DNA of 32,313 nucleotides from contig JAFXTB010000170.1 in NCBI GenBank assembly GCA_017525225.1, forward strand, positions 1-32,313, read 5' to 3'. The notes below the pieces were generated by a model. That model was not told the DNA's origin, did no database searches, and saw only the letters and a list, made by a program, of their open reading frames with translations. The stretch's first letter is position 1; the number at the start of each line of letters is the position of its first letter. Below are positions 172 to 5,510 of the stretch, piece by piece. This DNA is from Kiritimatiellia bacterium. Lineage in GTDB: Bacteria; Verrucomicrobiota; Kiritimatiellia; RFP12; UBA1067. Both the position numbers and the translations under genes were made by a program.

Positions 172-200
172 TTGCATGCGCCCTGCCGTTATGATATACT
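172..200 (+). promoter_or_regulatory. Promoter of the leucine operon
   Basis: TTGCAT (172-177) and TATACT (195-200) are separated by 17 bases, a good sigma-70-like arrangement, placing the start of transcription near 207. An overlapping pair, TTGGCG (166-171) and TATGAT (190-195) with 18 bases, is also possible. The leader peptide start codon follows at 228, as expected for a transcript that begins with an attenuator. Confidence 0.7.
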
Positions 201-227: not shown

Positions 228-302
228 ATGAACACGAACCTTCTTCTTAACGGGCTTCTTCTGCTCGCGCTTACGAGGCGCGGGGCGGTTTTGCTCGTCT
301 GA
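228..302 (+). CDS. leuL: Leucine operon leader peptide
   Basis: A 24-codon frame starts at ATG 228 and stops at TGA 300-302. Ten of the 24 residues are leucine: three in a row at codons 5-7, four in a row at codons 10-13, and more at 15, 22 and 23. It sits between the leu promoter and a strong terminator and ahead of leuA, the expected place for a leader peptide. Its job would be to sense charged leucyl-tRNA: when leucine is scarce, the ribosome stalls on the Leu codons and changes the folding of the RNA downstream. The ribosome binding site is weak (AAGG at 211-214). It is too short for most gene callers. Function is inferred from composition, position and the RNA pairings described in the next entries. 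Confidence 0.85.
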   Translation: MNTNLLLNGLLLLALTRRGAVLLV

Positions 303-342
303 AAAGGTCTAGGGTTCAGATAGAAGGCAAACGGCTCCGCGC
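264..342 (+). promoter_or_regulatory. Attenuator: pause hairpin and antiterminator of the leu leader
   Basis: Two exclusive pairings can be drawn. Segment 1 (264-270, CTCGCGC), which lies within the Leu codons, can pair with 278-284 (GCGCGGG) across a 7-base loop. Alternatively, 278-286 (GCGCGGGGC) can pair with 334-342 (GCTCCGCGC), nine pairs with one G-U, which consumes the 5' arm of the terminator. A ribosome stalled on the Leu codons would cover segment 1 and free 278-286 to form the antiterminator. A ribosome running to the stop codon would favour the terminator. The logic is that of enteric amino-acid attenuators; the pairings were read directly from the sequence. Confidence 0.75.
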
Positions 343-366
343 GAAAGGCGGAGCCGTTTTTCTTTT
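329..366 (+). terminator. Intrinsic terminator of the leu attenuator
   Basis: A perfect 10-bp stem (331-340 with 348-357), extendable by two A-T pairs, closes a 7-base loop and is followed by a T-rich run (357-366). It lies between the leader peptide stop and leuA, so it must be read through for the operon to be expressed. Confidence 0.9.
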
Positions 367-394: not shown

Positions 395-1915
395 ATGAAA
401 ACGGTACAGATATTCGACACGACGCTCCGGGACGGCGAACAGGCCCCCGGATACTCGATGAACAACGACGAGAAGGTTCGCATGGCCCTTCAGCTCGAAA
501 CGCTTGGCGTCGATGTGATGGAGGCGGGTTTCGCCGCCGCATCGCCGGGAGACTTCAAGTCGGTAAAGGCCATAGCGGATACGGTCAAAGCCTCTTCCGT
601 CTGCTCGCTTTCGCGGGCGCTGGAGAAGGACATCGAGGCTTCGGCGGCGGCAATCGGCGGCGCGGCACGGCCGCGCATCCACACTTTCATCGCAACGAGC
701 GACCTGCACCTCAAGTACAAGCTGCGCATTTCACGCGCCGACTGCCTGCGGCAGATAAGGCACGCCGTGTCCTACGCGCGTAACCTCTGCGGCGAGGTGG
801 AGTTCTCGGCCGAAGACGCCTCGCGAACGGACATCGACTTCCTCTGCAAGGCGTTCGAGACCGCCATCGCCGCCGGCGCCACGGTCGTCAACATACCCGA
901 CACGGTAGGCTATTCGACGCCAGACGAATTCGGCACGCTTGTCGCCACCGTCATGAACCGCGTCAAGGGCATCGGAAACGCGACGGTGTCCACGCACTGC
1001 CATGACGACCTCGGCCTTGCCGTGGCCAACTCGTTTGCCGGGATCCTCGCCGGGGCCCGCCAGGTGGAATGTACGATCTGCGGAATCGGCGAGCGTGCCG
1101 GCAATGCCGCATTGGAGGAGATCGTGATGGGACTTCGTACCCGCCAAGACGCCTACGGCGGCCTCGCCACGCATATCCGCACGGAAGAGATCGCCCGCAG
1201 CGCGCATGTGCTCTCGACCATCACGGGCGTGCGCATCGCGCCCGGCAAGGCCATCATCGGAGCAAACGCCTTCGCGCACGAAAGCGGCATCCATCAGCAC
1301 GGCGTCATGTCCAAGGCCGAGACCTACGAGATCATGACACCCGAGTCCGTGGGGATGAAGCAGACCGAACTCGTCCTCGGCAAGCATTCCGGCCAGCACG
1401 CGTTGGAGATGCGCCTCAAAGATCTCGGATACGACCTGGACGGGGGACGCATTGCAGATGTGTTCGCCGCGTTCAAGGCACTGGCCGACCGCAAGAAGCA
1501 GATCACGGACCGCGACCTGGCGGCGCTGGCGGAGTCCCGCGTGGCCGCGCGAAGCGCGAACGCGAAGGAGTGGAAGCTCGACTCATTCGTGGTAAACAGC
1601 GGCAACCACATGAGCGCAACGGCCCAGATCACGCTCGTAAGGGGAAAGAGGCGCGTACAGGATGCAGCCATGGGGACAGGCCCCATCTATGCCGCTTTCC
1701 GGGCCGTGGAGAAGATCATACGCCACCGATTCACGCTGGAGGACTACAGGATCGAGGCGGTGACCGAACGGCGCGACGCGCTCGGCGAGGTACTGGTAAA
1801 GATATCCGACACAAGAGGAACTTATCGCGGGCGCGGCGTATCCACCGACGTGATCGAGGGCTCGATACTGGCGCTGCTGGTCGCCGTGAACCGGATGATG
1901 GAGGCACGGAAATGA
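395..1915 (+). CDS. leuA: 2-isopropylmalate synthase
   Basis: First committed step of leucine synthesis: condenses acetyl-CoA with 2-oxoisovalerate to give 2-isopropylmalate. The 506-residue protein has the N-terminal TIM-barrel motif TTLRDGEQ (residues 9-16), the metal-binding HCHDD (201-205) and GIGERAGN (230-237). The C-terminal part after about residue 370 matches the LeuA dimer/allosteric domain that binds leucine for feedback inhibition. ATG 395 is chosen because it is preceded by AAAGGAAA at normal spacing and the protein then begins right at the conserved barrel; a TTG further upstream falls inside the terminator. The gene follows the attenuator and overlaps leuC by 4 bases, so it heads a leuACDB operon. 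Confidence 0.97.
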
Positions 1916-3186
1916 AGATGACAATGTCGCAGAAGATCCTTGCCGCGCACGCCACTGGTAGGGCGCGCTCGCCGAGCGCGCCGTATCTCCATCCCGGCGA
2001 ACTGGTCATGGCGCAGCTCGATCTCGTTCTCGGCAACGACATCACAGCGCCGGTCGCCATCAGGGAATTCCCGAAGTTCGGCCGCGAACGCGTGTTCGAC
2101 CGCGAAAAGGTGGCGCTCGTCCCCGACCACTTCACGCCCAACAAGGACATCAAGGCCGCCGCGCAATGCGCCGCGATGCGGACGTTCGCGCAGGCACAGG
2201 GGATCGTCCACTACTTCGAAGTGGGGCACGGCTGCGGAATCGAACACGCGCTTCTGCCGGAAAAGGGACTGGTCACGGCCGGCGATCTTGTGATCGGCGC
2301 GGATTCCCACACCTGCACGTATGGTGCGCTTGGCGCGTTCTCCACCGGCGTCGGCTCCACGGACATGGCGGCGGGTATGGCGGCGGGAGAGACGTGGTTC
2401 CGCGTCCCATCCGCAATCAAGGTCGTCTTGCGCGGCAAACCGCGCAGATGGATCGGTGGCAAGGACGTGATCCTGCATCTCATCGGAATGATCGGCGTGG
2501 ACGGTGCGCGCTACCAGTCGCTCGAATTCACGGGCGACGGCGTGGCGGAACTTTCCATGGACGATCGCTTCACCATCGCCAACATGGCGATTGAGGCGGG
2601 GGCGAAAAACGGAATCTTCCCGGTCGACGAAAAGACGCTGTCCTATCTGCGCGAACATGGCGCGAAGCCACCGCGCATCCACGCGGCCGACGCGGACGCG
2701 GAGTACGCGCGTACCGTGGAAATCGACCTCGCCAAGCTGGAGCCGACGGTGGCGTTTCCGCATCTGCCGTCCAACACGCATCTCGTGCGCGACGCCGGAA
2801 GTATCACCATCGACCAGGTGGTGATCGGCTCCTGCACGAACGGGCGGATATCGGATATGCGCATCGCCGCGGAAGTGATGCGGGGACGCAAGGTCGCCGA
2901 CGGCGTTCGCGCCATCGTGATTCCCGCCACACAACAGATATGGCTTCAGGCGCTGGACGAGGGCCTCCTGAAGGTATTCGCGGAGGCGGGATGCGTTGTC
3001 TCGCCGCCGACGTGCGGGCCCTGCCTGGGCGGCCACATGGGCATTCTCGCGGCGAAGGAGCGCTGCGTTGCGACAACCAACCGCAATTTCGTAGGCCGCA
3101 TGGGCCATGTCGAATCGGAAGTCTATCTCGCCTCCCCGGCCGTTGCGGCGGCATCGGCCATCGCAGGCCATATCACCACCCCGTAA
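1912..3186 (+). CDS. leuC: 3-isopropylmalate dehydratase, large subunit
   Basis: Isomerises 2-isopropylmalate to 3-isopropylmalate together with LeuD, using a 4Fe-4S cluster. The 424-residue protein is of the shorter (archaeal/bacterial type 2) form. The three cluster ligands are visible: Cys308 in GSCTNG, and Cys368 and Cys371 in [11 protein letters not shown] 1912 overlaps the leuA stop as ATGA, with GGAGG at 1900-1904. Residues 16-24 (GRARSPSAP) are an oddity: they are encoded by a hairpin repeat that interrupts the usual N-terminal sequence between AAHA and the PGEL segment. The rest looks intact, so the enzyme is probably functional. Confidence 0.96.
1956..1982 (+). repeat. Hairpin repeat (TGGTAGG family) inserted in leuC
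   Basis: TGGTAG is followed by an almost perfect palindrome, 1962-1982 (GGCGCGCTCG then CCGAGCGCGCC). It is in frame and encodes Gly-Arg-Ala-Arg-Ser-Pro-Ser-Ala-Pro. The same design, with a different stem sequence, occurs in leuB at 4306 and in two intergenic places on the other strand. Confidence 0.75.
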
Positions 3187-3284: not shown

Positions 3285-3764
3285 ATGAAAGCACACAAGT
3301 ATGGAGACAACGTCGATACCGACGTCATCATCCCGGCCCGTCATCTGAATACGTCCGATCCAGACGAGCTTGCGGCGCACTGCATGGAGGACATCGACCC
3401 CGCTTTCGCCGCCCGCGTCCGGTGCGGCGACATTCTTGTCGCCGGACGCAACTTCGGCTGCGGTTCCTCGCGCGAACACGCGCCCATTGCAATCAAGGCC
3501 AGCGGGATATCCTGCGTGGTCGCCGAGAGCTTCGCGCGCATCTTCTATCGCAATGCCCTCAATATCGGATTGCCCATACTGGAGTGTCCGGCTGCCGCCA
3601 AGGACATCTCCGCCGGCGATGAAGTGTCACTGGACCTCGCCACCGGCGAGATTGCCAATCTCACGACAGGGCGACGATTCCAGGCGGAACCCTTCCCGCC
3701 GTTCATGATGGAACTGATTGCGGCCGGAGGCTTGGCCGCCTATTTGAAAGGTGAGAGAAAATGA
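3285..3764 (+). CDS. leuD: 3-isopropylmalate dehydratase, small subunit
   Basis: Small partner of LeuC in the isomerase that makes 3-isopropylmalate. At 159 residues it is the short type that goes with the LeuC form seen here. Typical family stretches are [15 protein letters not shown] near the N-terminus and [14 protein letters not shown] in the middle, the latter being the substrate-binding loop that gives the family its specificity. The start ATG directly abuts the heptamer array and lacks a Shine-Dalgarno sequence. The 3' end overlaps leuB by 4 bases (ATGA), which suggests translational coupling from leuD to leuB. Confidence 0.95.
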
Positions 3765-4867
3765 AAGCGAAGATTGCGATTTTGCCGGGCGACGGCGTGG
3801 GTCCGGAGATTGTCGCCGAGGCTGTCAAGGTTCTGGAGGCAGTCGCGCGGCGGTTCGGACACGACTTTGAAATGACGGAGCACCCCGTCGGCGGCGCGGC
3901 ATACGACCGGTGCGGGGACTGCCTGCCGGAGACGACGCTCGCCGCGTGCAAGGCGGCGGACGCCGTTCTGCTTGGCGCAGTGGGAGGTCCGAAATGGGAC
4001 ACGCTGGCGCCGGAGAAGCGTCCGGAACGGCGCGCACTTCTCACGCTTCGCTCGGAACTTGGGCTTTTCGCAAATCTGCGTCCCGCGAAGGTATGGGACC
4101 CACTCAAGACCGCAAGTCCGCTCAAGGACGAGATCGTAGCGAGAGGCATTGATCTTTTGATCGTACGCGAACTGACCGGCGGCGCCTACTTCGGCAAGAA
4201 GGGACGTGGCGAGGGCGGCAAATCGGCCTACGACATGATACCGTACGCCGAACATGAAATTCTGCGTGTCGCGCGCATGGCGTTCGAGGCGGCGCGATGC
4301 CGCCATGGTAGGGCGGTCGCCCCGCGACCGCCGAAGGTGACGAGCGTGGACAAAGCAAACGTGCTGGAAACGTCGCGTTTGTGGCGCGAGACGGTGACGG
4401 CGCTTCATGCAGCGGAATACGCCGATGTGGCGCTTGAGCATCTGTATGTTGATAATGCGGCCATGCAGCTGGTGCGCGATCCGGCGCGCTTCGATGTGAT
4501 CCTCACCGAAAACATGTTCGGCGACATCCTTTCCGACGAAGCCTCGCAGATCACAGGTTCCATCGGGATGCTACCCTCCGCATCGCTGGGCACTTCGGGC
4601 GCGGGACTCTACGAGCCGATCCACGGTTCTGCGCCGGATATCACCGGCAAGGGAATTGCGAATCCCATTGCGACGATCCTGTCGGCGGCCATGCTGCTAC
4701 GCCATGCCTTGGGACTTTCCGGCGAGGCAGATGCCATTGAACAGGCTGTGGCGGATGTTCTCGCGCAAGGGTTGCGCACGCCTGACATCGCCTCGCCCGA
4801 CGGTCCGCCGACGGTAACAACGTCCGAAATCGGGGATGCAATAGAAGCTGCGCTAACCGGAAAGTGA
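3761..4867 (+). CDS. leuB: 3-isopropylmalate dehydrogenase
   Basis: Oxidises and decarboxylates 3-isopropylmalate with NAD+ to 2-oxoisocaproate, the last dedicated step to leucine. The 368-residue protein shows the family landmarks: GDGVGPEI near the N-terminus, [24 protein letters not shown] (Lys198), DNAAMQL, and the NAD-binding [16 protein letters not shown] 3761 overlaps the leuD stop. Residues 183-191 (GRAVAPRPP) are an insertion encoded by a hairpin repeat, placed just before KVTSVDKAN where relatives have only a short turn; a surface loop would tolerate it. This is the last biosynthetic gene of the operon. Confidence 0.96.
4306..4332 (+). repeat. Hairpin repeat (TGGTAGG family) inserted in leuB
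   Basis: TGGTAGG leads into a perfect 9-bp stem, GGCGGTCGC (4312-4320) and GCGACCGCC (4324-4332), with a CCC loop. It is in frame and encodes Gly-Arg-Ala-Val-Ala-Pro-Arg-Pro-Pro, closely similar in pattern to the leuC insertion although the stem bases differ. Confidence 0.85.
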
Positions 4868-4880: not shown

Positions 4881-5510
4881 ATGCTTACCACCTATATAGT
4901 CGGGTGCATTGCGCTCATCATCAAGCCTGGGCCGGATCTTACTTGCACCATTGCCACCGCGCTCGCTGATGGCAAGGCTCGCGCCACCACGCTGATGTTC
5001 GGCCTCATCGCCGGATGCTGGCTCTGGATACTGTTGCTGACGGCGGGCGTCGCCTCGTTCTTCACCGCCCACCCGACGACTATGACGGTAATCCAGATCG
5101 TCGGTGCCGCCTACATCGCGTATCTCGCCTACGGCGCGTTTGCAGACGCCTTCCGCAGTTTCCGCGCATCGTCGCCCGATGCGCTCCGTCCCGCAACGGC
5201 GCGTGGCCTGCGGCTTTTTCTGCGCGGGATCGCCATGTCGATGTCAAACCCTCTGACGATTCTCTTCTTTCTGGCGTTCCTGCCGAACTTCACGACTTCA
5301 AGCTCCTCCCTCTCACCCGCCATGCAGACATTGCTCCTCGGAACGCTCTTCTGCGCGCTCGTGCCGTTCATCTACTTCCCGATCATCCTCGCGGCGGACT
5401 TCTTCCGCGCTCGGCTTGTCGGATCAGTGAAGGCGACAGCCTGCCTGAAACTCGTGTCGGCCCTCATGCTCGCCGCCGTAGTCGCAGTCCTGGCGAGCAA
5501 GATCTTCTAG
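4881..5510 (+). CDS. LysE/RhtB-family amino acid exporter
   Basis: A 209-residue integral membrane protein with about six hydrophobic segments. The N-terminus (IIKPGPDLT) matches the PGP motif near the first membrane helix of the LysE/RhtB family, and the middle has the typical SMSNPLTILFFLAFLP segment. These proteins export amino acids or their analogues across the inner membrane by proton exchange. It follows leuB by 13 bases in the same direction. By position it may export leucine or a related amino acid, as LeuE (YeaS) does in Escherichia coli, but the substrate cannot be read from the sequence. It may be co-transcribed with leuB or use its own promoter at the junction. Confidence 0.85.
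   Translation: MLTTYIVGCIALIIKPGPDLTCTIATALADGKARATTLMFGLIAGCWLWILLLTAGVASFFTAHPTTMTVIQIVGAAYIAYLAYGAFADAFRSFRASSPDALRPATARGLRLFLRGIAMSMSNPLTILFFLAFLPNFTTSSSSLSPAMQTLLLGTLFCALVPFIYFPIILAADFFRARLVGSVKATACLKLVSALMLAAVVAVLASKIF

Follow-up and report, generated by a model that had tools for sequence, protein, structure and literature searches.

A predicted leucine-sensing transcription attenuator upstream of leuACDB in a rumen Kiritimatiellae genome

Does the short region between the promoter and the first gene of a leucine operon in a rumen bacterium control that operon through ribosome-mediated attenuation, and is such an element found among the relatives of this bacterium? A preliminary description had proposed a leucine-sensing attenuator at this locus. 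We analysed a window of 32,313 nt (the whole stretch of DNA), part of the 4.2-Mb genome of a rumen Kiritimatiellae bacterium. The nearest named relatives of its LeuA (84–97% identity) belong to MAGs that carry the labels Kiritimatiellae, Verrucomicrobia or Lentisphaerae; several of these MAGs come from rumen or other ruminant gut. Because of these close LeuA relatives, we infer that the window comes from a Kiritimatiellae genome, an assignment that is well supported. Our best reading, based on sequence and folding computation, agrees with the earlier proposal: the region is predicted, with a probability of about 0.9, to be a classical ribosome-mediated transcription attenuator of leuACDB reading the supply of charged tRNA-Leu, which is probably the signal sensed.

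The leu operon and its leader ORF

Pfam matches support leuA, leuC, leuD and leuB in this order, as described earlier, followed by a gene for a LysE-type exporter and by pdxS-pdxT (coordinates of the main features are given in Table 1). The start of leuA is ATG395; the TTG365 given in the list of ORFs falls inside the terminator tail. The LysE-family exporter gene (4881–5510) lies 3′ of leuB in the same direction, with pdxS and pdxT next to it, and its product is possibly a leucine or branched-chain amino acid exporter within the regulated operon. The promoter in Table 1, chosen by eye, is the most likely one, and in relatives the same −10 region again occurs just 5′ of the leader ORF; a consensus promoter scan proposed other spacings.

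Table 1. Features of the leu leader region and operon in the window
Feature	Position	Strand	Comment
Probable promoter	172–200	+	−35 TTGCAT 172–177, 17-nt spacer, extended −10 TGATATACT 192–200; by eye
Leader peptide ORF (MNTNLLLNGLLLLALTRRGAVLLV, then stop)	228–302	+	ATG228–TGA302; 24 codons
Segment 1	264–270	+	Pairs with 278–284
Segment 2	278–286	+	Pairs with segment 1 or with 334–342 (antiterminator)
Segment 3, antiterminator partner	334–342	+	Overlaps the terminator 5′ arm
Intrinsic terminator	329–366	+	12-bp stem 329–340/348–359 and U tail; covariation in relatives
leuA (2-isopropylmalate synthase, with LeuA allosteric domain)	395–1915	+	Pfam
leuC	1912–3186	+	Pfam; start codon overlaps leuA stop
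leuD	3285–3764	+	Pfam
leuB	3761–4867	+	Pfam

The leader ORF contains 10 Leu codons (at 240–248, 255–266, 270–272 and 291–296), the number given in the preliminary description, and has the highest Leu fraction (0.417) among the 229 window ORFs of 15–45 aa; the runner-up reaches 0.278. About 10 close relatives have a near-identical leader ORF. The Shine-Dalgarno sequence of the window leader is weak (AAGG, ~12 nt upstream), which counts against the attenuator reading. A search of the genome for a second copy of the leader gave nothing beyond chance matches, so the leader is single-copy. In this genome, hisG and ilvB have promoters immediately upstream, and no attenuator leader was found for either.

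Alternative pairings and the predicted switch

The terminator hairpin has 12 perfect pairs followed by TTCTTTT (dG −22.7), and the two mutually exclusive pairings proposed earlier are both complete, with one G-U pair in each. Segments 1 and 2 form 7 of 7 pairs (dG −10.2); segments 2 and 3 (GCGCGGGGC:GCTCCGCGC) form 9 of 9 pairs, with −16.1 for the helix and −30.9 for the whole domain. For RNA with its 3′ end at 300–330, folding gives the 1:2 pairing a probability of 0.8.

Leader translation, termination and the response to leucine are the predicted steps of the mechanism. Transcription would begin near position 207, and a ribosome would translate the leader. At low leucine, the ribosome would stall at the Leu codons at 255–266 and cover segment 1, leaving segment 2 free to pair with segment 3; this pairing would block the terminator and RNA polymerase would continue into leuA. 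With ample leucine, the ribosome would enter or pass segment 2, or would end at the stop codon with the 1:2 helix formed; segment 3 would then pair with segment 4 and transcription would stop at ~360–366.

We modelled the ribosome as blocking 18 nt on the 5′ side and 13 nt on the 3′ side of the A site (the footprint size is assumed). In the full RNA at equilibrium, the antiterminator wins when the model ribosome stalls on Leu codons 10, 11 and 13 (P of 0.80, 0.97 and 0.89, respectively); a stall on codon 12 gives it a P of just 0.30, which counts against the proposed switch. From codon 16 onward, the model ribosome masks segment 2 and the terminator forms with P ~0.92. In RNA ending before the terminator 3′ arm, the leader holds the 5′ arm with P 0.81 for stalls at Leu codons 5–13 and with P 0.06–0.29 for a ribosome from codon 16 onward.

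Conservation among relatives

LeuA is present in 104 of 144 relatives, and upstream regions were examined at 100 loci. An automatic criterion asked for a terminator at most 150 nt from leuA, the end of a leader ORF nearby and at least three Leu codons in some 12 codons. A Leu-rich leader ORF together with an intrinsic terminator 5′ of leuA was found at 73 of the 100 loci of Kiritimatiellae relatives, a count to be read with the lenient Leu criterion in mind (weak cases among the 73 include L122, L165 and L174). By eye, L016, L017 and L164, which are not among the 73, seem to have degenerate versions. The joint criterion failed at 27 loci, among them L013 and L015, where leuA has its own promoter directly at the gene and no leader, and L020–L022 and L116, where leuA is directly 3′ of another gene. 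At L020, L021, L022, L116 and L177, leuA abuts the preceding gene with no leader; several of these preceding genes end in a region that by eye resembles the ACT domain of prephenate dehydratase. The suggested extension of leader-peptide attenuation to this lineage is supported by recurrence of Leu leader and terminator across Kiritimatiellae, while the expectation that relatives keep both features holds at the 73 loci and not at the 27 others, some of which lack the element.

In a wider sample of the phylum, where leader ORFs alone were scored, Leu-rich ORFs were found in families f12, f18, f20, f23 and f29 of the class and also in f34; no Leu-rich leader ORF was evident in family f36. Two loci of family f34 (L246 and L247) have ORFs with long Ile/Leu runs (ILLLIQLIILLLII) 5′ of leuA; these may be leaders that respond to two or more branched-chain amino acids. 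Family f1 holds two LeuA types, ~64–97% and ~50–55% identical to LeuA of the window, and leu leaders accompany both types, pointing to gene replacement or to a duplication long ago.

Covariation had been proposed as a check on the pairings. Among 24 close leaders, five pairs of the terminator stem show changes on both sides (a score reached in 0 of 500 shuffles), and the covariation score of the 1:2 helix was reached in 2 of 500 shuffles. The antiterminator is 89% paired in these leaders with a nearly invariant core, and for this reason the 278–286/334–342 pairing gives no covariation signal in the close clade. Compensating changes in this pairing, whose absence was to speak against the attenuator, do appear at larger distances. 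Among 44 dissimilar leaders, the mean energy of pairing between a terminator 5′ arm and the leader of its own locus is −19.5 kcal/mol, compared with −16.6 (sd 0.42) for permuted partners. This advantage was reached in 0 of 20,000 permutations (a figure of signal strength rather than an exact probability, as the 44 representatives share some ancestry), and the Wilcoxon test against swaps gave 2.6e-4. Since pairing of a terminator arm is stronger with the leader of its own locus than with leaders of other loci, the antiterminator is conserved despite changing letters, as seen in AGATCCGC:GCGGATC (L029 and L121), ATCTGCGG:CCGCAGAT (L031) and GCGCGGTGGGCCC:GGGCCCACCGCG (L163).

Over the same 44 leaders, the equilibrium model clearly prefers the antiterminator in 13 and never does so in 31; this counts against the attenuator reading, since in the latter the switch must be kinetic, and a co-transcriptional proxy was therefore used instead. 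Its means were 0.56 for Leu codons, 0.44 for other codons and 0.42 for the stop codon. Rotated Leu labels matched the observed difference in 0 of 2,000 trials; Leu codons thus occupy positions at which a stalled ribosome leaves the antiterminator free to form.

In many Kiritimatiellae leu leaders, conservation is highest at the codon pair CGA-CUU (Arg-Leu, usually followed by Thr or Ser). It is in frame 0 in 34 of 34 leaders, usually at codons 11–12 (e.g. L139, L143, L126 and L156), and by eye is also present in the Leu-poor ORFs of L169 and L175. CGA makes up 27% of Arg codons in leaders compared with 7% in genes of the window; the leader of the window itself has CTT where relatives have CGA. 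We looked for RNA segments that pair with the CGACTT motif and found no consistent partner. In Rhodopirellula-type genomes of Planctomycetota (L057–L070; e.g. L061, upstream of position 3001), we observed leaders exemplified by MRNPTLNLLLLLLERQTGG, in which CTA is frequent among the Leu codons, with a strong terminator 5′ of leuA and a segment at and after the stop codon (GATGAGGGTTTG) able to pair with the terminator arm; leaders of L057 and L070 have CGACTT as well. A tentative and, in our judgement, rather doubtful proposal is that leader-peptide leu attenuation arose early and is common across the PVC group (Kiritimatiellae and, at first sight, Planctomycetota), with CGA-CUU in many leaders setting ribosome timing or providing a second input.

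These data also bear on other explanations of the locus. The hairpin could be a constitutive terminator or an mRNA-stability element next to an incidentally Leu-rich ORF, as might be argued from L169 and L175, the few loci where the hairpin is kept beside a Leu-poor ORF. We consider this highly improbable given that the Leu content is 22.7% in leader peptides and 8.0% in genes, that CTT makes up 49% of Leu codons in leaders vs 23% in genes of the window, and that the Leu codons are located at the switch position. Arrest of a nascent peptide on a ligand, instead of codon-based sensing of charged tRNA-Leu, would fit the in-frame CGA-CUU pair of the 34 leaders, which is more conserved than the remaining peptide; however, the peptides are otherwise very divergent and this Arg is absent from the window and its nearest relatives, which leaves a minimal chance for such a mechanism.

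Control of translation rather than transcription, with Leu codons pairing with the leuA Shine-Dalgarno sequence in a pseudoknot fold as in the actinobacterial LEU element, would involve the same gene and also a Leu-rich leader ORF, and that element, as described, forms a pseudoknot and has no classical terminator (PMC1262725). At 73 of the 100 loci examined here, leader and leuA are separated by a strong terminator with a U tail, and it is the terminator arm that co-varies with the leader; we thus regard this explanation as extremely improbable and retain the transcription attenuator.

Comparison with known systems

Control codons are mostly CTT here, whereas CTA is the control codon of the E. 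coli leu leader. The enterobacterial leu attenuator (leuL; RF00512 Leu_leader) otherwise shares the Leu-rich ORF, the 1:2, 2:3 and 3:4 pairings and the terminator directly 5′ of leuA. No Rfam family matched the window at gathering threshold, and relaxing the threshold gave sub-threshold leaders alone. The window scored 19.8 bits against RF00512, below the gathering threshold of 50, and is not assigned to it. The best attenuator match in Rfam, RF01859 Phe_leader, has the same general layout, but the Phe leader precedes other genes; with 31.2 bits against a gathering threshold of 55, membership is rejected here too.

The actinobacterial LEU element likewise has a Leu-rich leader ORF 5′ of leuA, but combines a pseudoknot with a base stem of Leu codons and Shine-Dalgarno sequence and has no classical terminator (PMC1262725); the terminator between leader and leuA speaks against placing the window leader in this class. 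The ilv-leu attenuator of Staphylococcus aureus likewise includes a terminator and a leader peptide that has Ile/Leu codons; it precedes ilvD, is of mixed Ile and Leu composition, and differs from the window leader in its proposed antiterminator, for which pairing to the U tail is suggested (PMC5794164). T-box leaders precede leuA at four of the nearest non-Kiritimatiellae loci (L047, L049, L053 and L054, Clostridia). They control the same gene, presumably by the same signal (charging of tRNA-Leu), and read the tRNA directly; the T-box family RF00230 has no match in the window at gathering threshold.

According to a 2010 survey, leader-peptide attenuation had until then been known in Proteobacteria and Actinobacteria alone; to these the survey added one his example from Firmicutes (PMC2965389). 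The statement in the preliminary description that leu attenuators are found mainly in Proteobacteria and Actinobacteria is to be widened, as peptide attenuators of branched-chain operons have been reported from Firmicutes too (PMC5794164). In the open-access literature searched, we found no paper joining Kiritimatiellae and leader peptides and nothing relevant on leader-peptide attenuation in Planctomycetes; such absence is weak evidence.

A leu attenuator that covaries and recurs throughout the class Kiritimatiellae, along with the similar layouts in Planctomycetota, would widen the known range of this regulation; a conserved CGA-CUU pair with a role in timing or as a second input is not known from leu attenuators described so far. 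The leaders would form a large comparative set for the question of ancestral vs many origins, and they would offer a prediction about gene regulation of a kind that is rare for uncultured bacteria of the rumen. The mechanism is one already known from other bacteria; its occurrence in this lineage is new, judging by the open-access literature searched.
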